The notes: a model not told the origin generated them from the sequence alone. 64,000 bases of DNA from Gemmatimonadota bacterium (GCA_027307165.1 DAHUXM010000021.1:62001-126000), one strand, 5' to 3'; shown: positions 45,917 to 63,687, numbered from the stretch's first letter. Numbers and translations: made by a program.

Positions 45917-48900
45917 TCAGCTGCCCATCATGAACATCCGGATCCCGACTTTTTCCTTCGCCTTGAGCAGCGTTGCCGGTAGCCAGGGCAACAGTTTGAG
46001 TTGGATCGGGCTGAGTATCCTTGGCAACGTACGCTGAACATCGAGGCGCGAAATCTCCCAGCCTTCGTCGACAGCGGCTTCCTGTTTCTTCAACGCTTCC
46101 GCGGGGTCGTAGTCGTCACCCAGTCCCGCAAGATATTCACTGAGCGCTGTCCACACGCTGTCGATGTGCTGCCGGTAGGCCGTATCGGCTTTCTGAAGCG
46201 ATTCGGCCTGGTCGCGGCTAAGCAGTAGCGAGTCCGACTCCTCGAGGATCGACGAGTACGGATCCGGCACGTTGCGCGCGTAGCGGCGCTTCAGTTCAGT
46301 TACGGAAAGCCGGGGTCCCTTCCGGCCGTTGCGTCCCGGTTTGAGCCAGCGGTTGAGCATCTGCTGCGGCAGCGGACGGCCCAGGCCGAGCGAGATGTCG
46401 ATGGATATACGGAATGGTACGCGCAGCAGTGTGTTACTCGGCCGCGTATTTCCGAATCGCGGATTGACAGCGTAGCTGAATCGATCGCTGCCGGGATCGA
46501 ACGCGGTGGGTCTGTAGAGAACGGGATCCGGAAATGCGGGAGTACCCCATCCGCGCAGGTGGTTCGCGCCATGCAGCAGCTGATCGAGCCCACCGAGCGG
46601 ATTGGACAGTGCGAGTGAGATACTGCCGTACTGCTTCGTGATCGGCATCGTGCCACTATACGACAGCTGTGCGTTGAGCGAAGTTGTCCATGGCCCCTCG
46701 CAGCTGTTCCTGCCAGCGGGGTGATCCATCTGTGTCGTCAAACAGTCGCGAACGCTTCGCGACGAATTGGAGAGCAGCGCGCGCGTCGCGTTCGCCAGCG
46801 AAGCATCCGCGCTCGTCGCGGGGTTGAAGATGAACGCGCGATCGTTGGCGAGCCCATCGCCGTTCACGTCACCGCCGACCATTGGAGTGAAGGGAAGGCC
46901 GGATTGGATGCGGCCAAAGAAGGTGAGCGCCACCCGCCGGAAGGTGTAGCCGCCCTGTAGCAGGATCTGGTGGCGCACATCCAGATCGCCGCGCGCCCAC
47001 TCGCGCGTGACGGGACTGCCGAACGTCGCGCCGTCGAAGCCACTCTGCCGTGCGCGTGTATCCGCGAGAGTGTAATTGACGCCCAGGAACCAGTTGGAGA
47101 TTCCATCCAGCTCCGGTGACAATGACACCGTGACCTGTTTGCTCCGTGACGTCAGCGTGGATACGTTGTCGATGACGTGGCCAAACAATGGCGATACACG
47201 TGCCTGCACGGACGATAACGTGCCTGAGTTCGAAACGATGCTGCTGGGATCAACGAATACCGGTCGTCCTTCATCGGCAAGTGTGAATCTCGGTACGTTC
47301 GCGAAGTTGACGTCGGTGCGTCCGGGTTGATTCAGATTGAGCGAGTACAGACCTTCGATCGAGTACGTCAGCAACCTGTAGCTCGAGGAATACGCCAGGT
47401 TGCCGCGCCAGCTTCGTGGCGCCGTGTATCCAGGATCGAACAGCTGCACCGATGGCGCAACGTCGGTGAACACGGGCGTTGCTCCGTCGAGGCATTGCGT
47501 GGGTATGGACGCCGGATCGGTTAGGTACTGCTCCCAGCTCGGGATCGGCGTTGCGGCTCCGACGCAGGTGAGCGATTGCAGGCCGCCTGGCAGTCCGGTC
47601 GCGATCGAGGCGTTGGTCAGGAGATTCGCCGGAAGAATATTCCGGAATTCGCCGATTCCGCCGCGCACGTAGCTGACAGGCCCAGTGCGGAACTCACCGA
47701 TCTGGTTGAATCTGATTCCATCGCCTTCCGGCTTTCGGATCCACGTAAATCCGATACGCGGACTGATGTGAACCGTGTTCGGCGCATGATCGGTCCGCAG
47801 CCCGAATGTGGACTGCACGGCAGGATTGAACTCCGGCGCAGACAGGTAGTGATTAGCCTCGAGGCGTGCGCCGTACATCACCTGAAAGGCGGAAGACTTG
47901 CGCCAGAGATCGCCGAGCGCGACGTATCCGTTCCAGACGGAGCCGTGGAGCGTCGGCGCATTGAGGGAACGTGTGAAACTCGACGGTTGATTGCTGGCAA
48001 GGTCCCTGAGCGAGTTGAAGGCAAACGATCCGAAGGAATTCGAATTCGTCTCCTGGCGGATCCCGTCGACGCGCGAATCGGCGTCCAGCTTGACGCGATG
48101 CGTATCGCGTCCATGCGCATAGAATTGGGTCATGCTCGTCGTCTCCCAGGTCCACTGGCGTGTGTCGCTGAGTCTGGCGCTGTTTCCACCGAAGGCCAGC
48201 GAAGTCAGGCCAGCGGTACCGTCCGGAAACGAGGAGCCCACGAGCACACTCCCGTCCGGAAGCGTGAGATATGGAGTTGACCGGTTTCGCGAAAATGTGA
48301 ATCCACTCCGCTCCTCGTTCAAGTAGTCGCCGTGCAGATATGTCGAGAACAGCGCCTGCAGCATGCCGATGCCTTGCGACGTCGAAGCACCGTGAGCAGC
48401 AATAGCGGTCGGGCTGATCGCCGCAGCGTTGTCACTTGACAGTTTTCCGTACGCAAGCAGTCCCCACGTCGTCCGGGCGGGCTGGAAGCTGTCCCAGTTG
48501 TACGGCGCGTGATCGACTCGCGCAATGAACGACGCGTTCTGCATGACGTGTGACGATGGCACTGCGGCGGTACGCAGCGGCATCCCCGCAGCGGATAGCA
48601 GACTGAACAGTCGATCCGCGGAGTCAGACGATACGCCGGCGCGTTGCAGCAGGTCGGGTGCCGCGTTGGAGAGAAATACAGCATCCGATGTCCGACGCCC
48701 GGCCTGCGCGCCATAGTTGTACACGAACTTATCGTCGTCCATGGCTCCGTCGCCACCAAAGCTCGCGACGACGTTGCCGAAACGCTGTCCCATCCGTGCC
48801 GACACCGGATCGGTATATTGCAGCGCAGGCGCGTCCAGCGTGACGTGCGCCCGTCGGCTCGCGAACAGATTGCCGCGGGACAACTCGACATTCTCATTGA

Positions 48901-49612
48901 ACCCCCCGAACCAGCCGCGCGACGGATCGTAGGTAGAGCTGGATACGCGCACGCTCGTTCGCGCATCGCGCGGTACATCGGCGCCGGCGAACGCCATCCC
49001 GTTGATCGTCGTCGAGTTTTGTCCACCGATGCCCCCAACCGAAAGGCCGCCCGGTGTGGACGCAATTCCCGGAATCGTGGCACCGATCGCCGCAAGATTG
49101 CCAGCGTCGTCTGGCGACACTGCACCGTTCACGCCGCCTGCGATCTGCTCCGACGCGCCGATTTCAACTCCGAATAACGGCGCGCGCGATGGGACCTGTT
49201 TCTCCGGTGCCTTGACTTTTACCGCTGCAAGCTGTTGAACTCCAGTCCGCGTGAGCGTGGCGTCCACGGTGAACATCGAGTCCGACCCAACTCGTGTCAC
49301 GCGCTTGCGATACGTACTGTATCCGACGGCGGAGATGTGTACCAGATAGTCGCCCGTCCCGCTCGCAAACTCCATCGAGTAGCGGCCGGCGCTGTCCGTC
49401 GTCGTCGCTCGCGAGAGACGATCCGGAGCCATCGTGATGATGATATCCGCGGCGGGAAGCACCCTGCCGCTATCGGTCGTCACGGTGCCCCGAATCGTGT
49501 CGTGATGCGTCTGGGCAGTGCAGGGGACGGCCCACAGTGTCGCGATTATCAGACCCGATATGCACCTGCCCCAAGTGAACGTTCGCGTGATTCCCGATGG
49601 GTGATCCATCAT
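45917..49612 (-). CDS. TonB-dependent-receptor-like outer membrane protein with N-terminal CarboxypepD_reg repeat and helical C-terminal extension
   Basis: 1231 residues. Signal peptide ending PCTAQ, a carboxypeptidase-regulatory-like domain (about 37-115: DTIRGTVTTDSGRVLPAADIIITM, SAGRYSMEF, YLVHISAVGYSTYRKRV), then a plug-like region (GGLSVGGIGGQNSTTINGMAF, about 170-215) and a long beta-barrel-type region rich in aromatic alternating strands to about 1090. Unlike ordinary receptors it does not end in an aromatic barrel strand. About 130 helical residues follow, with two LTxxQ-like motifs (LSRDQAESLQ and LSPIQLKLLP). ATG 49612 overlaps the stop of the M56-TonB gene (ATGA). Ligand unknown; a classical TonB box was not recognised. 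Confidence 0.82.
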   Translation of the reverse strand: MMDHPSGITRTFTWGRCISGLIIATLWAVPCTAQTHHDTIRGTVTTDSGRVLPAADIIITMAPDRLSRATTTDSAGRYSMEFASGTGDYLVHISAVGYSTYRKRVTRVGSDSMFTVDATLTRTGVQQLAAVKVKAPEKQVPSRAPLFGVEIGASEQIAGGVNGAVSPDDAGNLAAIGATIPGIASTPGGLSVGGIGGQNSTTINGMAFAGADVPRDARTSVRVSSSTYDPSRGWFGGFNENVELSRGNLFASRRAHVTLDAPALQYTDPVSARMGQRFGNVVASFGGDGAMDDDKFVYNYGAQAGRRTSDAVFLSNAAPDLLQRAGVSSDSADRLFSLLSAAGMPLRTAAVPSSHVMQNASFIARVDHAPYNWDSFQPARTTWGLLAYGKLSSDNAAAISPTAIAAHGASTSQGIGMLQALFSTYLHGDYLNEERSGFTFSRNRSTPYLTLPDGSVLVGSSFPDGTAGLTSLAFGGNSARLSDTRQWTWETTSMTQFYAHGRDTHRVKLDADSRVDGIRQETNSNSFGSFAFNSLRDLASNQPSSFTRSLNAPTLHGSVWNGYVALGDLWRKSSAFQVMYGARLEANHYLSAPEFNPAVQSTFGLRTDHAPNTVHISPRIGFTWIRKPEGDGIRFNQIGEFRTGPVSYVRGGIGEFRNILPANLLTNASIATGLPGGLQSLTCVGAATPIPSWEQYLTDPASIPTQCLDGATPVFTDVAPSVQLFDPGYTAPRSWRGNLAYSSSYRLLTYSIEGLYSLNLNQPGRTDVNFANVPRFTLADEGRPVFVDPSSIVSNSGTLSSVQARVSPLFGHVIDNVSTLTSRSKQVTVSLSPELDGISNWFLGVNYTLADTRARQSGFDGATFGSPVTREWARGDLDVRHQILLQGGYTFRRVALTFFGRIQSGLPFTPMVGGDVNGDGLANDRAFIFNPATSADASLANATRALLSNSSRSVRDCLTTQMDHPAGRNSCEGPWTTSLNAQLSYSGTMPITKQYGSISLALSNPLGGLDQLLHGANHLRGWGTPAFPDPVLYRPTAFDPGSDRFSYAVNPRFGNTRPSNTLLRVPFRISIDISLGLGRPLPQQMLNRWLKPGRNGRKGPRLSVTELKRRYARNVPDPYSSILEESDSLLLSRDQAESLQKADTAYRQHIDSVWTALSEYLAGLGDDYDPAEALKKQEAAVDEGWEISRLDVQRTLPRILSPIQLKLLPWLPATLLKAKEKVGIRMFMMGS

Positions 49613-51186
49613 TGTGGATCTTTGGTGATCGCGAACGTGAACGGCTGCTGTACCAATTGTCTGATGTGCTTGCCGCGGATTTCAGCAGGTGCGAAGGTCA
49701 TTTTGGGGAGTGCCGTGCGGACCGCCTGCTCCAGGAGCGGATCTGTCGCGTTGGTGATCTTGATGCCGGCGGCCCGATCGACGCGGCCCGTGGTATCAAC
49801 GGTGAATTCCGCATCGACTTCACCACCGATTCGCGCGCGGCGTAAACTATCGGGATATAGCGGCGTCACCGTCGTGGGCAGCATTCTCGCAGGCTTGTCG
49901 ACCTGGAAGCTGAAATACGTCATGGTGTGACTCGCGGTGTCCGTGGGGCGGAATTCCACAGCGCGTAGCGCACGCGTGTTCTTCCGTGCTGCATTGAGTA
50001 TTGCCTCCACGGAATCGCGCTCGTTCGTCGCGCGCTGCAGTGCGCGCATCCGCGTTGCCATCATCCGCTCGCGTGTGCGCAGGCTGTCGTTCTGTCGCCG
50101 CAGTATGGCGAGACTGTCGATCCGCCGCTTTGATCCGGTATCGATTCGGACGGACCACGCTGGCGCAATCGGCAATGGTGCGGCGGTACGAGACATAATT
50201 GTCGGCACTGGCGTCGTGAATGCCGCCGCAACGGCTATGAGCGCGACTACGCCACCGGTGACTACGCTCTGCATTCCGATGCGCCGCACACTGGTCATCG
50301 CGCGCAACCGCAATTCCAACTCCGACGGCAGTCTCAGCAGCGCAACCATCGGAACGGCGAGCGGACCGCTGTTCCGCCCGCGTGCAGCTACCTCCAACAG
50401 TACGTGACCGTAATCCTTCGCACTCGGATATCGAGTCAACACCCGCATGTCGCAATCGAGCTCGATCGCGCGCCGAAGCCGGGCCGCGCACCACCACAAC
50501 CCGATGTTCCACGGCATCAGAACCAACGCGACTACCGCGAGCATCAATCGCTCGGGATCACGCGCCGTAATGTGTTCCGACTCGTGCGCGAGGACGAGCC
50601 TTCGATGTTCCGGCAGCATCGTTGTCGCCCAGGATGGCAACACGATCCGATGTGACAGAAAGCCGACCACCGCGGGTCCGGTCATCGCCGACACGTCCAC
50701 ACTTACGCCATCCACAACCGTCCTTTCCCACGATCGCTGCGCTCTGCGCCAGTGGAACACGCCAACCGCAAGCCACACGACCAGCGATGCCGACAACACG
50801 ATCCAGCCAATCAGCGCCGTTGCGGCGAAATCGCGTGCGATGCGCGAGAGCGCGGTGTGTATCGTAGAGCGCGACGGCGCGATCAATCGGATGAGTGCAT
50901 CCCGTCCGATGTAGCTGTAGCCGCGCCGAGCTGCAGCCCGCCCGGAGTTTATGATGATTCTCGTCAATACTGGGGGGCCGTCAACTGCAGCCACTCCCGT
51001 TGCGGCGCGGGCGTCGAGGGCGTGCAACGTCAGCACTCCACTCGGCGCCAACACCGCAAGCACGATCGCCGCCGTCCAGACATGCCGCGCCACGCCGCGT
51101 CCCCGTGTTCCCCATTCCATTGCTGCTGCGGCGCCAGCGAGCAACAGTGTGAACAGGACCATGTATGCGAATACGGTGGGAGTCAT
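49609..51186 (-). CDS. BlaR1/M56-type membrane metalloprotease with C-terminal TonB domain
   Basis: 525 residues. Membrane helices near 5-22, 37-57 and 122-145, zinc-protease motif HESEH (201-205) with RAIELDCDMRVL downstream as third-ligand region, and a further helix near 310-330. A periplasmic coiled coil follows (about 345-405: IDSLAILRRQNDSLRTRERM...). The last ~100 residues (from 423, coded at 49612-49920) are a TonB C-terminal domain instead of the penicillin-binding sensor of BlaR1. Overlaps BlaI upstream and the receptor gene downstream by ATGA. By family, the protease relieves BlaI repression; the TonB domain probably senses or engages the receptor. Confidence 0.88.
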   Translation of the reverse strand: MTPTVFAYMVLFTLLLAGAAAAMEWGTRGRGVARHVWTAAIVLAVLAPSGVLTLHALDARAATGVAAVDGPPVLTRIIINSGRAAARRGYSYIGRDALIRLIAPSRSTIHTALSRIARDFAATALIGWIVLSASLVVWLAVGVFHWRRAQRSWERTVVDGVSVDVSAMTGPAVVGFLSHRIVLPSWATTMLPEHRRLVLAHESEHITARDPERLMLAVVALVLMPWNIGLWWCAARLRRAIELDCDMRVLTRYPSAKDYGHVLLEVAARGRNSGPLAVPMVALLRLPSELELRLRAMTSVRRIGMQSVVTGGVVALIAVAAAFTTPVPTIMSRTAAPLPIAPAWSVRIDTGSKRRIDSLAILRRQNDSLRTRERMMATRMRALQRATNERDSVEAILNAARKNTRALRAVEFRPTDTASHTMTYFSFQVDKPARMLPTTVTPLYPDSLRRARIGGEVDAEFTVDTTGRVDRAAGIKITNATDPLLEQAVRTALPKMTFAPAEIRGKHIRQLVQQPFTFAITKDPQ

Positions 51187-51554
51187 TTCGAGTCCTCCGC
51201 CAGCCGCTCGTCGAGCAGCGCGCGCAACCGCCGAAGCGTCGCATCGTCGAGCCCGCGGTCGGATACGAGCTGCGTGAGTAGTCTCTCGGGAGACCCGCGG
51301 AAGAACTGCCCCAGCACTCTGTCTATCGCGCTCGAGCTCGCGTCATCCCGGTCGATCAGCGCGGCATAACGATGTGCGCGCCCCTCGACTTCTCGCGCGA
51401 CGTGCCCCTTTTCCTCCAGCACGCGCAACAGCGTAAGGATCGTCGTATACGCGGATCCGTCGCCGAGTGCGTCCCGCACCCCCGCGACCGTACTTGGCCC
51501 GCGCTCCCAGAGCACGGTCATGAGCTCTATCTCCCGTGGGGTCAGCCGCTGCAT
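51183..51554 (-). CDS. BlaI/MecI-family transcriptional repressor
   Basis: 123 residues. Winged-helix DNA-binding part (LTPREIELMTVLWERGPSTVAGVRDAL, SAYTTILTLLRVLEEKGHVARE) and a C-terminal dimerisation helix bundle. In BlaI/BlaR systems the repressor is cut between these parts by the M56 protease encoded next to it. ATG 51554 behind AGGAGG. Dyad operators lie directly upstream (51568-51598), so autoregulation of the three-gene operon is likely. Confidence 0.93.
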   Translation of the reverse strand: MQRLTPREIELMTVLWERGPSTVAGVRDALGDGSAYTTILTLLRVLEEKGHVAREVEGRAHRYAALIDRDDASSSAIDRVLGQFFRGSPERLLTQLVSDRGLDDATLRRLRALLDERLAEDSK

Positions 51555-51567
51555 CCGGACATCCTCC

Positions 51568-51598
51568 TACTAAGAGTCTAGTACTATCGCCATAGTAC
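51568..51598. promoter_or_regulatory. BlaI-type operator dyads
   Basis: Two overlapping inverted repeats: TACTA-N6-TAGTA (51568-51583) and GTACTAT-N4-ATAGTAC (51581-51598), both immediately upstream of the blaI-like gene. TACT/AGTA half-sites are of the type bound by BlaI/MecI dimers. The phosphatase-like gene at 51728 diverges from here and could share control. Confidence 0.65.
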
Positions 51599-51727
51599 GT
51601 TCGTCTCGTCAGGACGTCAAGGGCTAATCGGAATGATCTTGTCGCACCAGTTTCGCCAGCGCCGGCGGCGGGAAAAACGAGGTCGGTCCGACCCCAGGAC
51701 CCCCTGGTTGCGCTACCTTTTGGTGCC

Positions 51728-52837
51728 ATGACGCGTCCTCGTCTTCGCTCAGCGCTTCGGCTCGCGATCCTGCTGCTTCTCGCGACCGCGCGCACGGCAC
51801 CAGCTCAAGCTCCGCACCACACCCGCAACGTCGTCCTCATCGTGTCCGACGGTCTCCGCTGGCAGGAGATATTCGAGGGCGCGGACAGCCAACTGATGAA
51901 TCGCAAGTTCGGCCACGTCGAGGATACGGCCGCGCTCCGCCGCGAGTTCTCGCGCGACGATGCTAGCTCCGCACGCGCCGCGCTCTTCCCATTCATATGG
52001 AACGTCGTCGCGAAACAGGGTGAGATCTTCGGAAATCGCACGATGCAGAGCGACGCGGATGTCACCAACGGGTTCAAGTTCTCCTATCCCGGCTACAACG
52101 AAATGATCAGCGGGCATCCGGATCCGCGCATCGACAGCAACAACGCCGGACCGAATCCCAACCTCACCGTGTTCGAGTGGCTCGACAAGCGACCCGGCTT
52201 CACCGGGCGCGTAGCCGTCTTTGGAACCTGGAACGAGTTCGCAGACATCTTCAATCGCGGCCGTAGTCAACTTCCGATCTGGGCAGCGTTCGACGCGCCG
52301 CCGACGGCATCGCCACCCACGGCGCGCGATTCGCTACTCGTCAACCTGTATGGCACCACTACCCGTCTCTGGAGCGATCTGGCGTACGATTCGTTCATGC
52401 AGGCGGAAGTGCGCGAGTACATCGCGCGCGCGCATCCGCGTGTCATGTTCGTCGGTTATGGCGAGACCGACGAGTGGGCCCACATGGGCCGCTACGACAT
52501 GGTACTCAAGTCCGCGCATCAGTTCGATCAGTTCGTCGGCGATCTGTGGAACGCCATGCAACGGATGCCGCAGTATCGCGACTCGACGACGTTCATCATC
52601 ACCGCAGACCACGGTCGCGGAAGCGGGCTCACTGCGTGGAGCGATCACGGCGCAGACGTCGCCGGTGCGGAAGCAATCTGGATTGCGGTAATCGGGCCGG
52701 ACACACCGGCTAGCGGCGAACGCATGCACGTCAGCCGCGTAACTCAGTCCCAGATCGCCGCAACCATTGCAAGTCTGCTCGGCGAGAATTACTCCGCCGC
52801 CGTTCCCGCAGCAGCGCCGCCGCTTCCGGTGCGTTGA
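51728..52837 (+). CDS. secreted alkaline-phosphatase-superfamily protein
   Basis: 369 residues, signal peptide to APAQ. Metal-site motifs of the AP/sulfatase fold: LIVSDGLRWQEIF (first Asp), FVGYGETDEWAHMGRYD (Asp and His), FIITADHGRG and WSDHGADVAG. The usual nucleophile Ser/Thr position is not certain (SSARAAL or PGYNEMISG). Likely a phosphatase, phosphodiesterase or sulfatase outside the cytoplasm. ATG 51728. Divergent from the BlaI operon. Confidence 0.83.
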   Translation: MTRPRLRSALRLAILLLLATARTAPAQAPHHTRNVVLIVSDGLRWQEIFEGADSQLMNRKFGHVEDTAALRREFSRDDASSARAALFPFIWNVVAKQGEIFGNRTMQSDADVTNGFKFSYPGYNEMISGHPDPRIDSNNAGPNPNLTVFEWLDKRPGFTGRVAVFGTWNEFADIFNRGRSQLPIWAAFDAPPTASPPTARDSLLVNLYGTTTRLWSDLAYDSFMQAEVREYIARAHPRVMFVGYGETDEWAHMGRYDMVLKSAHQFDQFVGDLWNAMQRMPQYRDSTTFIITADHGRGSGLTAWSDHGADVAGAEAIWIAVIGPDTPASGERMHVSRVTQSQIAATIASLLGENYSAAVPAAAPPLPVR

Positions 52838-60298: not shown

Positions 60299-60347
60299 TG
60301 TGCGCCAGTATTCTTCTCTCAGTCATTCTGAGGAGCTTGCTGCCGCA

Positions 60348-61061
60348 ATGTTCAACCAGCTAATCGAGTCGAAGCGCGCCAAGAAGCGCAGCCCGGGGAC
60401 CACTGCGTTCAGCATTGGGCTGCACGCGGGACTCATCGGGCTCGCGGTCTGGGCGACGGCCAACGCCGCCATCAAGAACGAGAAGCCGAAGGCGGAGAAG
60501 ATCGAATTCGTCCAGGTGAAGAAGGACGAACCGCCTCCGCCGAAGAAGGAGGCACCGCCGCCGCCAAAGGCTACTGTTGCGCCGCCGCCGCCCAAGGGTT
60601 TCCAGGTGCCACAGGCGCCGCCGATCGTTCCGGTCAAGATCCCCGACATCGATCTTTCCAAGAAAGTCACGAACGTCGCTGACTTCAGCGGAAAGGGCGT
60701 CGAAGGCGGTGTCGCGAATGGTGTCGTAGGTGGAAAGGGACCGGTCTCGAACACCGAGACGTACTTCTCGTTTCAGGTAGAGAAGCCCGCCGCGATGGCG
60801 TCGGGAACCGTGACACCACAGTACCCCGAGACGCTTCGGAGCGCGGGCATCGAGGGAGAAGTCGACGCGGAGTTCACCGTGGACACCACGGGCCGCGTGG
60901 ATCAGGCCGCGGGGATCAAGATCAACAAGGCTACAAATGATCTGTTCGCCGCCGCCGTCAAGTCAGCCCTGCCGCGCATGAAGTTCTATCCTGCGGAGAT
61001 CGGTGGGCACAAGGTCAGACAGCTCGTGCAGCAACCGTTCACGTTCACGATCACTCATTAA
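60348..61061 (+). CDS. tonB: TonB energy-transducing protein
   Basis: 237 residues. Single N-terminal helix (TTAFSIGLHAGLIGLAVWATA, with the usual His), Pro/Lys-rich linker (KKDEPPPPKKEAPPPPKA), and TonB C-terminal domain from TYFSFQVEKP to the end. Transmits ExbBD energy to outer membrane receptors. ATG 60348, with AGGAG 12 bases upstream. Its C-terminal domain matches that of the M56 protease gene at about 70 of 99 positions. Confidence 0.92.
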   Translation: MFNQLIESKRAKKRSPGTTAFSIGLHAGLIGLAVWATANAAIKNEKPKAEKIEFVQVKKDEPPPPKKEAPPPPKATVAPPPPKGFQVPQAPPIVPVKIPDIDLSKKVTNVADFSGKGVEGGVANGVVGGKGPVSNTETYFSFQVEKPAAMASGTVTPQYPETLRSAGIEGEVDAEFTVDTTGRVDQAAGIKINKATNDLFAAAVKSALPRMKFYPAEIGGHKVRQLVQQPFTFTITH

Positions 61062-61091
61062 CCGTCCCACCATTCCACGGAGTAACGAACA

Positions 61092-61832
61092 ATGCATCTA
61101 TCGCTGATTGACCTTTGGGGCCAGATGGCCGGTTTCGCCCGCGGCATCGTTTACGTGCTCGCGATCATGTCGATCTGGACCCTGTCGATTTCGATAAAGA
61201 AGTGGTGGGATCTCAAGTCGGCCCAGAACGAAACACGCAAGTTCGCGCCCGAGTTCTCGCAGTTCCTCGAAGAAGACAATCTCGTGGAGGCCGCAAACCT
61301 CTCCGAGCGCTACAAGAAGTCGCACGTTGCACGCGTTCTGGCCGGTGCGCTCTCAGAGACCCGCGCACTCGTACAGGATGGTTCCGTAACGATCGCCGAC
61401 ATCAACTCCGCAGAGCGCGCGATCGAGCGCGAAATGCTGATGACGATCACCGATCTCAAGCGCGGCCTGGGCGTGCTCGCGACAAGCGGTGCAACTGCTC
61501 CGTTCGTCGGACTGCTCGGAACGACCATGGGTATCATCAACGCCTTCACGGGCATGGCAGTTTCCGGTTCAGGCGGTCTGTCCGCGATTTCCGGCGGTAT
61601 TTCCGAGGCACTCATCACGACCGCTCTCGGTCTGCTCGTCGCAATTCCGGCAGTGTGGCTCTTCAACTACTTCCAGACCAAGGTCGACAATCTCACGGCC
61701 GAGATGACCTACACGTCCAAGGAAATGATCGATTATCTGATCAAGAACGTTTCGGGCGAGTTCGGCCGCAGCCGCTTCACGCGCGAGTTCAATACGACGG
61801 CCACGGCCGGCAACGCGCCAATTTCCAAGTAA
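61092..61832 (+). CDS. exbB: ExbB/TolQ/MotA proton-channel protein
   Basis: 246 residues, three membrane helices: IVYVLAIMSIWTLSISI near the N-terminus, GVLATSGATAPFVGLLGTTMGIINAF and ALITTALGLLVAIPAVWLFNYF. The conserved ATSGATAPFVGLLGTTMG block and Thr/Pro residues of the proton path are present. Works with the two ExbD proteins and TonB encoded around it. Confidence 0.93.
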   Translation: MHLSLIDLWGQMAGFARGIVYVLAIMSIWTLSISIKKWWDLKSAQNETRKFAPEFSQFLEEDNLVEAANLSERYKKSHVARVLAGALSETRALVQDGSVTIADINSAERAIEREMLMTITDLKRGLGVLATSGATAPFVGLLGTTMGIINAFTGMAVSGSGGLSAISGGISEALITTALGLLVAIPAVWLFNYFQTKVDNLTAEMTYTSKEMIDYLIKNVSGEFGRSRFTREFNTTATAGNAPISK

Positions 61833-61854
61833 CGTTTCGTTCCAAGCGACATAG

Positions 61855-61954
61855 GGCGCGGATATATCCGCGCCTGTGGTTGAAGGGTGGCGGATTCATC
61901 CGTACCCGCAGATGGAAGGGCCGGCGCCCCGTCCGGCAGTAAACGACGGGGCGC
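61855..61954. repeat. intergenic palindromes inside the exb operon
   Basis: 61855-61874 is the perfect palindrome GGCGCGGATATATCCGCGCC, matching the 24394-24413 element except at the central two bases. 61924-61933 and 61945-61954 form a second 10-bp hairpin. Both lie in the 152-base gap between exbB and exbD, the only long gap in the operon. Confidence 0.75.
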
Positions 61955-61984
61955 GGTTCCACACTTTTCGAGGGATTCGTATTT

Positions 61985-62473
61985 ATGGCAATGTCAACAT
62001 CGGGCGGGAACGCGGTTCGCGCGGATCCAAATGTGACTCCGATGATCGACGTCATGCTCGTTTTGCTGATCATCTTCATGGTCATCATTCCGACGCTGGT
62101 GTCGGGCGTCAACGCGCAGCCGCCAGCTGGTCAGAACCTCAAGCCGCACCCGCAACAGGATCAGGACCAGCTTCTTGGTATCGACAATCAGGGCCAGTAT
62201 TATCTCAATCGCAGTGCGATCCCGAATGCGTCACTCAGTACCGCTCTCACCGACATCTACAGCAAGCGCACCGAGGACAAGATTCTCTACGTCAAGGCTG
62301 ACAAGAATCTCGACTACGGCAAGATCCTCGACGCGCTCGACATTGCGGCAAAGAGTGGCGTTCGCATGACGGCCATGGTCACGGACCAGCAGGCTGGCAC
62401 GCATTCGTTGATTCCGAGTGATAACATCGAGGCGACAAGCGCTGGCACGCCGAGCAGCGGGGGACCAAAGTAA
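61985..62473 (+). CDS. exbD: ExbD/TolR family protein 1
   Basis: 162 residues. N-terminal NVTPMIDVMLVLLIIFMVI, with the proton-carrying Asp in MIDVMLV, then a periplasmic domain (LLGIDNQGQYYLNR, ILYVKADKNLDYGKILDALDIA). Forms the ExbBD motor. ATG 61985; the stop and the next ATG share a base (TAATG). Confidence 0.93.
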   Translation: MAMSTSGGNAVRADPNVTPMIDVMLVLLIIFMVIIPTLVSGVNAQPPAGQNLKPHPQQDQDQLLGIDNQGQYYLNRSAIPNASLSTALTDIYSKRTEDKILYVKADKNLDYGKILDALDIAAKSGVRMTAMVTDQQAGTHSLIPSDNIEATSAGTPSSGGPK

Positions 62474-62892
62474 TGGCGATGTCAACAGGTGGTGGTCGCG
62501 GCGGCTTCACGTCCGAGCCGAATCTGACCCCGATGATCGACGTGTTGCTGGTGCTTCTCATCATCTTCATGGTGATCGTGCCAACGGCGCGGAAGGCGAT
62601 CGACGTCCAGCTTCCGGATCCGACTATCCAGCCGACGAGTGCGCCCAGCACCGATCAGATCGTGCTGGAAGTGGGCAAGGACGGCACGTATCTGATCAAC
62701 AAGCAGCCGGTCCCTGGCGGGGCGAGCGGCTTGAGCCAGATGATCCACAACACGTTCGACAAGCGGCCCGAGAAGATCATGTTCGTCAAGGGTGATCCGG
62801 CTGCCAAGTATCAGCAGATCATCCAGGCGATGGACATCGCTCGTGGCTCTGGTGTACTGGTCATCGGCATAACGCCAAAGTCGACGCAATAA
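62473..62892 (+). CDS. exbD: ExbD/TolR family protein 2
   Basis: 139 residues. NLTPMIDVLLVLLIIFMVIVP with the conserved Asp, and a periplasmic domain (IVLEVGKDGTYLINKQPV, IMFVKGDPAAKYQQIIQAMDIA). Clearly a duplicate of the preceding gene, as in many phyla where two ExbDs form a mixed dimer. Overlaps it by one base. Confidence 0.93.
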   Translation: MAMSTGGGRGGFTSEPNLTPMIDVLLVLLIIFMVIVPTARKAIDVQLPDPTIQPTSAPSTDQIVLEVGKDGTYLINKQPVPGGASGLSQMIHNTFDKRPEKIMFVKGDPAAKYQQIIQAMDIARGSGVLVIGITPKSTQ

Positions 62893-62901
62893 GGGTTTCA
62901 C

Positions 62902-63687
62902 ATGTACCGTCCGCCCGTTGGAATTCCGCGGCGGGAGCAAAAGCGCTGGCAAGGGTGGTTATTCTCCCTGCTGGCGCATTTGCTTTTGCTGCTGTTTCTC
63001 CTTCGTCCAGTGCTGGATTCGGGGATCGATTACGGTCACCGCGATGGAGCCGGTGGTGCCGGCCCCGCGGGCGGCGGTGGCGGTGGCCTGGGCGATAACG
63101 CTGCGCCACGGTTGCGCTTCGTGCAGATCGCGCCGCAGGCAGCGCCTGCGCCAGCTGTAACGCGCACAACTCCGGTCCCGCCGGTGCCAGCTGTACTTCC
63201 GCCAATTCCAACACCTCCCCAGCCAAAGCCGGTGCCGCCTTTAGTTGCGCCGCCGCCGACTGCCGTGACAGGTGCAGCAACAGCGTCTTCCGCGACGGCC
63301 GGCGCAGGCAGCGGTATCGGAAAGACTGGCGGCGCTGGTGCCGGTCCTGGCAGCGGCGGCGGTGTCGGGTCGGGCGAGGGGCCGGGCAAGGGAAGCGGCG
63401 TTGGGCCCGGCACGGGAGGCGGCGCAGCAAAGAACTATCCGCCGACGCTCAAGCAGTTCGTGCTCCCTCCACTCCCGACTCCCGCGAGCGTGCGCGGATT
63501 CAAGCTCACTGCCTGGTTCGACGTCGACTCCACCGGCAAGGCCACACTGCTGCGCTTCACGCCAACTCCCGACCGCGGCTACAACGACAGAGTGCGCGAG
63601 ACGCTGCTCGCGCTGCGATTCCGGCCCGCGGTTCGGGCCGATGGTGTCGCTATCCGCGACACGGTGGACATCCAGGTTCTCTTCTAA
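62902..63687 (+). CDS. second TonB-like protein with Pro- and Gly-rich linkers
   Basis: 261 residues. N-terminal helix (WLFSLLAHLLLLLFLLRPVL), a Gly run (about 50-65), a Pro-rich linker (PVPPVPAVLPPIPTPPQPKPVPP), a Gly/Ser-rich stretch (about 135-175) and a C-terminal TonB/TolA-like domain (SVRGFKLTAWFDVDSTGKATLLRFTPTPDRGYNDRVRETL). Differs from the first TonB and may serve another receptor class. ATG 62902, nine bases after exbD. Confidence 0.85.
   Translation: MYRPPVGIPRREQKRWQGWLFSLLAHLLLLLFLLRPVLDSGIDYGHRDGAGGAGPAGGGGGGLGDNAAPRLRFVQIAPQAAPAPAVTRTTPVPPVPAVLPPIPTPPQPKPVPPLVAPPPTAVTGAATASSATAGAGSGIGKTGGAGAGPGSGGGVGSGEGPGKGSGVGPGTGGGAAKNYPPTLKQFVLPPLPTPASVRGFKLTAWFDVDSTGKATLLRFTPTPDRGYNDRVRETLLALRFRPAVRADGVAIRDTVDIQVLF

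Follow-up and report, generated by a model that had tools for sequence, protein, structure and literature searches.

The window analysed here, a stretch of 64,000 nucleotides (C25:62001-126000) from the 3.7 Mb genome G000 of a soil bacterium of the Gemmatimonadota, carries on its minus strand an operon in which the genes for a BlaI-type repressor, an M56 zinc metalloprotease ending in a TonB C-terminal domain and an outer-membrane receptor of the TonB-dependent transporter type follow one another, with a 4-nt ATGA overlap at each of the two junctions. We put it a little short of an even chance that this operon is a self-contained switch from the cell surface to the DNA, in which the TonB domain of the protease would dock on the loaded receptor. 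The original prediction had proposed three ATGA-overlapping genes, namely a BlaI repressor, a zinc protease with the motif HESEH and a receptor, and all these parts were found in place (Table 1). The repressor shows a winged-helix match to Penicillinase_R (PF03965) over residues 4-116, which amounts to the full-length fold, and the protease passes the Pfam cut-offs for both the M56 core (Peptidase_M56, 7.5e-18) and TonB_C.

The C-terminus of the protease, for which a domain search had been proposed as the check, proved to be TonB-like by Pfam, by PDB profile and by Foldseek, and TonB from complexes with FoxA, BtuB and FhuA was matched across all three. The best PDB matches by Foldseek are the TonB chains of the TonB-FoxA and TonB-BtuB complexes (TMt 0.84 for each), and a profile of 13 M56-TonB fusions matches solved TonB C-terminal domains together with BlaR1 (8exp); the profile and Foldseek matches rule out that the domain is noise of the hidden Markov models. 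Judged from sequence and predicted fold, what the protease carries at its end is a genuine TonB C-terminal domain. In the AlphaFold model the predicted local distance difference test (pLDDT) is 70 overall, which is moderate, and 85-92 in the TonB domain, which is good. BlaR1 is also among the best PDB matches of the model, and the M56 core, the HExxH site and the BlaR1-like fold that mark BlaR1/MecR1 are all present. The C-terminal penicillin-binding sensor domain is absent from the protease, where TonB_C stands instead, and the score of 32.7 bits with the blaR1_generic model lies far below its cut-off of 400; the protease would work like BlaR1, but is not BlaR1. Hydropathy and the model place the TonB domain after the last transmembrane helix, and by analogy with BlaR1 the C-terminus would lie on the periplasmic side. 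The linker (residues 326-440), which includes a predicted helix of 52 residues, would in principle be long enough to span the periplasm. The coiled coil of the original prediction stands as a predicted long helix at residues 358-409, while the coiled coil itself is weakly supported, with 53% hydrophobic residues at the heptad a/d positions vs 38% overall. A single N-terminal anchor helix of the TonB type (for ExbB-ExbD coupling) and a proline-rich linker were not found; the domain is carried instead by the final transmembrane helix of the M56 part.

Identity between the domain and the resident TonB, its closest relative in the genome, is about 69%. When 46 TonB domains were placed in a tree, those borne by the proteases of the genus nested in a clade of seven sequences with the genus's own TonB (support 100/98). 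Within this clade, support is moderate for the pairing of the protease domain and the TonB of G001 (92/87) and for the joining of the protease domains of G000 and G002 to the TonB of G000 (89/82). Elsewhere in the tree, the protease TonB domain of G044 adjoins the TonB of that genome (98/85). A single origin of the protease-borne domains was rejected (lnL 83.6 worse when constrained; AU p 0.001), and from these sequences they are polyphyletic. Together with the nesting beside resident TonB, this rejection implies either repeated acquisition or repeated homogenisation with the resident TonB, and the data appear to fit both alike. Between G000 and G002, the ratio of nonsynonymous to synonymous substitution rates (dN/dS) is 0.14 in the TonB domain, 0.14 in the protease core and 0.34 in the linker, so the domain is under purifying selection like the core. 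A search of plasmids gave no M56-TonB fusion, only a TonB-type match.

For the receptor, the only Pfam match is CarboxypepD_reg, and neither the plug and barrel models nor the STN signalling domain were found by Pfam, by which standard it is assigned to a divergent family. Its identity was taken from structure because the plug and barrel models had all missed. In the AlphaFold model, built with 60 homologs, pLDDT is 89.7, and the 50 best-ranked PDB matches are all TonB-dependent transporters, with 6ofr (E 1.9e-36), 4zgv and 5fr8 first and 1fep also among them. The model and Foldseek indicate a plug with a 22-stranded barrel, a number that comes from the fold and not from counting individual strands. 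This fold bears out the TonB-receptor-like outer-membrane protein of the original prediction and rules out a non-TonB porin. Between the N-terminal domain and the plug, the sole low-confidence, presumably disordered loop (residues 125-137) overlaps the sequence LAAVKVKA, which follows a family consensus L-A-A-V-x-V-x-A (L in 55/60, the two V in 54/60 and 46/60, the last A in 49/60) and is a putative TonB-box-like motif. The C-terminal tail, which has no significant Pfam family, is the most conserved part of the receptor (dN/dS 0.05). This helical tail is shared by the family (window positions 45920-46300, minus strand), and LTxxQ-like motifs were noticed in it by eye.

Upstream of the BlaI gene (dN/dS 0.02) lies a promoter TTGACG-N17-TACTAT, and the left arm of the perfect dyad GTACTATGGCGATAGTAC is the -10 box itself. 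Dyad sites with no more than 3 mismatches number 3 vs 0.17 expected. Perfect 7-N4-7 palindromes of any sequence are not rare (12 in 64 kb), so the weight of the dyad rests on its position and conservation. In G001 and G002 the -35 box, the spacing and GTACTATGG...TAGTA are retained although the flanks have diverged, and the right arm is imperfect in G001. The dyad operators predicted ahead of the genes are seen as one perfect dyad covering the -10 box, kept in two sister species, and a weaker one overlapping it; as in BlaI/MecI systems, the dyad lies at the operon's own promoter, and it is a putative operator. A search of the G000 genome for TACTA-N6-TAGTA returned only this operon and one other site, no more than in the reversed control. 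That third site (G000:C25:138501-138516, L049) lies between genes for proteins of 453 and 110 amino acids and, given the control count, is probably due to chance. In other genera, BlaI genes adjoining this receptor family bear different dyads of their own.

We propose the following chain, because the docking on the TonB box known from FecA/FpvA, where TonB attaches to the TonB box once the receptor is loaded and that same movement is also required for signalling (PMC9249621), can be joined with the action of BlaR1, in which a change in the outer domain is passed to the protease, which cleaves BlaI (PMC7593790). BlaI would occupy the dyad over the -10 box and repress its own operon. The M56 protease would have its active site in the cytoplasm and its C-terminus in the periplasm as in BlaR1, with the TonB domain held on the long helix across the periplasm. 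Once the co-encoded receptor is loaded, its TonB box would become available, and the TonB domain of the protease could dock there in competition with the real TonB. Occupancy or clustering would make the protease active, and the active protease would remove BlaI, so that repressor, protease and receptor would be derepressed together. We infer the topology, the docking, the direction of the signal, the cleavage of BlaI and the ligand. The loaded receptor might, as the original prediction had it, pull on or release the TonB domain; it is more likely that the domain is a passive reader rather than a pulled rope, because what ties it to the membrane is the protease's final transmembrane helix, and not a TonB anchor. 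If release instead of docking altered the protease activity, the operon could be a governor of receptor abundance, in which empty or misassembled receptors would hold the TonB domain and the receptor level would be kept constant. A dyad over the -10 box through which the operon would regulate itself, the joint translation of protease and receptor, and the strongly conserved receptor tail, which is periplasmic in the usual receptor topology, would all suit such a governor; TonB domains, however, normally prefer loaded receptors (FecA, FpvA, BtuB, FhuA; PMC9249621), and this speaks for docking as the activating event; we consider the governor improbable enough to give it little credence.

Within the genus, the four species sampled share the neighbourhood of the operon, with a CHAD protein and a peroxiredoxin. 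In G000, G001 and G002 the genes for BlaI, the M56-TonB protease and the receptor lie between these two, so that the gene order is kept in three of the four species, with 53-91% identity in the protease; the expected conservation of gene order holds to this extent, but not further out. In the fourth species, G003, the protease at the same locus (63% identity over residues 94-355) has the peroxiredoxin gene as its immediate downstream neighbour; its C-terminus has no TonB domain by Pfam, and the receptor is absent. A receptor with 61% identity is found elsewhere in the G003 genome, behind a BTAD/TPR regulator. That TonB domain and receptor are both missing at this locus, and that three species keep the gene order, speaks for a dedicated partner.

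The receptor family was surveyed in 60 members, which are non-independent and were chosen for closeness to the receptor of the window. Directly upstream of the receptor gene, BlaI-M56 stands in 6, BlaI alone in 1, FecR in 2, and an extracytoplasmic function (ECF) sigma factor with a CpxP-like protein in 3. For the two receptors preceded by FecR (L149, L159) there is a sigma match further upstream. Receptors of the family at L151, L185 and L148 have an ECF sigma factor ahead of them together with a small protein resembling CpxP/Spy, in place of BlaI-M56. No FecR or sigma gene was found within 5 kb upstream on the same strand of the window's receptor, where BlaI-M56 takes that slot; the contrast with the paralogous receptors that have FecR or ECF sigma in the same slot supports the earlier claim of a system without a sigma/anti-sigma pair. 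Four separate gains, one with TonB ends and three with other ends, are required to explain the BlaI-M56 pairings on the receptor tree, so that BlaI-M56 and this receptor family have come together on no fewer than four occasions; the chance of at least 4 pairings among the 60 has a rough probability of 2e-6 at about 5 M56 genes per genome. In one of these operons, which belongs to another genus (G017, L079:2399-7776), the periplasmic end of the protease lacks a TonB domain and instead shares 45-48% identity with the C-terminal helical tails of its own receptor and of nearby ones. In G017 and in the genus of the window alike, what the protease ends in corresponds either to a piece of the receptor or to its binding partner. 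It is possible, and we hold it only tentatively, that a membrane protease reads the TonB box of the receptor with a captured host TonB domain and destroys the repressor, and that such sensors evolve repeatedly by capturing a part or a partner of the receptor, the TonB domain here and the receptor tail in G017.

Several observations weigh against the proposed switch from receptor to DNA. In the BlaI-M56-receptor operons of G381 and G267 the protease ends are unassigned and unrelated; not every operon of this kind has the TonB domain, which counts against the original prediction in its detail. In G044 (L189:4964-9167) BlaI lies directly upstream of a receptor of the same kind with no M56 protease between. 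The G003 comparison comes from one metagenome contig, on which an ABC-permease-like stretch upstream (5') of the protease looks chimeric. The scissile N-F of MecI aligns with Q95-L96 in BlaI, and the receptor has no STN domain. Among about 105 M56 loci, moreover, only about 15 have TonB ends and few of these lie beside this receptor, and in the best 80 loci of the scan of named genomes the one receptor beside a TonB-ended M56 protease was again that of G001. Most TonB-ended M56 proteases are thus without an adjacent receptor, and the domain may read something more general. It could read the state of TonB-dependent transport as a whole, through any exposed TonB box or through competition with energised TonB, with the adjacent receptor as only one regulated target. 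M56-TonB fusions are common in the phylum, each genome has many receptor paralogs, and the resident TonB, to which the domain is so similar, would be expected to serve many receptors. Nevertheless, the TonB domain and the receptor were lost together at the same locus in a congener and the near-overlapping gene order is kept in three species, and we find such a general reader somewhat unlikely. The high variability of protease ends between operons could also mean that the TonB-like domain acts in the periplasm purely as an anchor or for dimerisation, with sensing elsewhere (membrane helices, linker or cell wall) and the receptor adjacent through incidental co-regulation. In line with this, BlaI-M56 operons also adjoin HEAT/DUF5916 genes, one of them in G000. 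The anchor is, however, quite unlikely in our view, since TonB domains close to the host's own TonB were acquired repeatedly and in phylogenetically separate lines, and the purifying selection on the domain argues for retained TonB-type binding.

Table 1. Coordinates of the operon and related features in the window
Feature	Position	Strand	Basis
BlaI/MecI-type repressor, 123 aa	51183..51554	-	Pfam Penicillinase_R 1.6e-27; alignment with MecI 1okr over full length
M56 membrane metalloprotease with TonB C-terminal domain, 525 aa	49609..51186	-	Pfam; BlaR1 and TonB structure matches
Zinc site HESEH, residues 201-205	50572..50586	-	H201, E202, H205 and E242 invariant in 13 M56-TonB fusions
Predicted last transmembrane helix of protease, about residues 313-331	50194..50250	-	hydropathy; model helix 306-324
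Predicted long periplasmic helix linking membrane to TonB domain, residues 358-409	49960..50115	-	model, pLDDT mostly 65-70
TonB C-terminal domain of protease, residues 442-519	49630..49863	-	TonB_C 2.2e-9; Foldseek
TonB-dependent-transporter-type outer-membrane receptor, 1231 aa	45917..49612	-	AlphaFold model pLDDT 89.7; Foldseek
CarboxypepD_reg-like N-terminal domain, residues 39-121	49250..49498	-	Pfam PF13620 1.8e-14
Putative TonB-box-like motif LAAVKVKA, residues 128-135	49208..49231	-	family consensus and low-confidence loop
Predicted helical hairpin of receptor C-terminal periplasmic tail, about residues 1133-1199	46016..46216	-	model helices
-35 box TTGACG	51615..51620	-	read directly; invariant in three sister species, 17 nt from -10
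Perfect dyad GTACTATGGCGATAGTAC, putative BlaI operator over -10 box TACTAT (51592-51597)	51581..51598	.	position and conservation
Second, imperfect dyad, 4-nt overlap with first	51567..51584	.	3 mismatches, none of them in the outer TACTA/TAGTA arms
Resident TonB, closest relative of protease TonB domain in G000	60300..61061	+	sequence comparison, tree

Some further features were noted around these genes. The resident Ton cluster (60300-63687, plus strand) holds TonB, an ExbB-like and two ExbD-like open reading frames (61092-62892, named by eye from their translations) and a further TonB/TolA-like protein without Pfam match. The region beyond BlaI in the window contains a divergent phosphodiesterase-like gene (51728-52837) and, unlike that of the sister species G002, no TonB gene. 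In G002 a gene for a separate TonB (L043:9377-10081, minus strand) precedes BlaI in the same orientation at a distance of 126 nt. At L189 of G044, a CTCCTAAA..TTTAGGAG dyad precedes BlaI. A second BlaI-M56 operon of G000 (L047, G000:C25:187870-199233) continues with genes for a HEAT-repeat protein and a DUF5916/CBM9 protein, and similar orders recur in relatives. The large genes downstream of other M56 proteases were considered as receptors, and the nine tested encode HEAT, DUF5916, TMEM260-like, M14 or spermine-synthase proteins.

Like BlaI/BlaR1 and MecI/MecR1 of Staphylococcus and Bacillus, the operon joins a repressor and an M56 protease in overlapping genes with a dyad over the promoter, and like BlaR1/MecR1 the protease has its zinc site in the M56 core and, after the last transmembrane helix, a C-terminal sensor that would lie in the periplasm or outside the cell, with profile and fold matches to 8exp/8exq. 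It differs from them in that the sensor would be a TonB domain, not a penicillin-binding domain, and the output is an outer-membrane receptor, not a beta-lactamase or PBP2a. With FecA-FecR-FecI and FpvA-FpvR-FpvI it shares a TonB-dependent receptor co-encoded with a transmembrane regulator, and proteolysis as the switch (PMC9249621, PMC7593790), which is here proposed; unlike these, it has no sigma or anti-sigma factor and no STN domain on the receptor, and a repressor and a protease instead. The kinship with TonB-ExbB-ExbD is that of the C-terminal domain, which is nested with the resident TonB; being carried by a protease without N-terminal anchor or proline-rich linker, it is not expected to be energised. 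The annotated Gemmatimonadota M56 proteins with TonB_C ends have the same domain order and BlaI upstream with a 4-nt overlap, whereas almost none of them has a receptor in the operon.

In the literature searched, which covered a minority of subscription papers, neither a description of BlaI, an M56 protease and a TonB receptor in combination nor a functional report on the TonB_C-ended M56 proteins of the Gemmatimonadota was found. The M56-TonB architecture in itself already follows from existing Pfam models; what is new is the kinship of the protease TonB domain with the TonB of the genus, the recurrent pairing of BlaI-M56 with the receptor, the G003 locus without both TonB domain and receptor, and the receptor-like protease end in G017. 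To our knowledge, the known routes from TonB-dependent receptors to the genome run through sigma/anti-sigma pairs. We read the operon as an unreported variant of BlaR1/BlaI signalling that does the job of cell-surface signalling. If this is true, the route through a repressor and a protease would be a simpler one, it would be widespread in a phylum that has been little studied, and it could be read from sequence, as the end of each protease would tell to which partner it listens, and the many TonB-ended M56 proteases annotated only as BlaR1-like would have a possible role.

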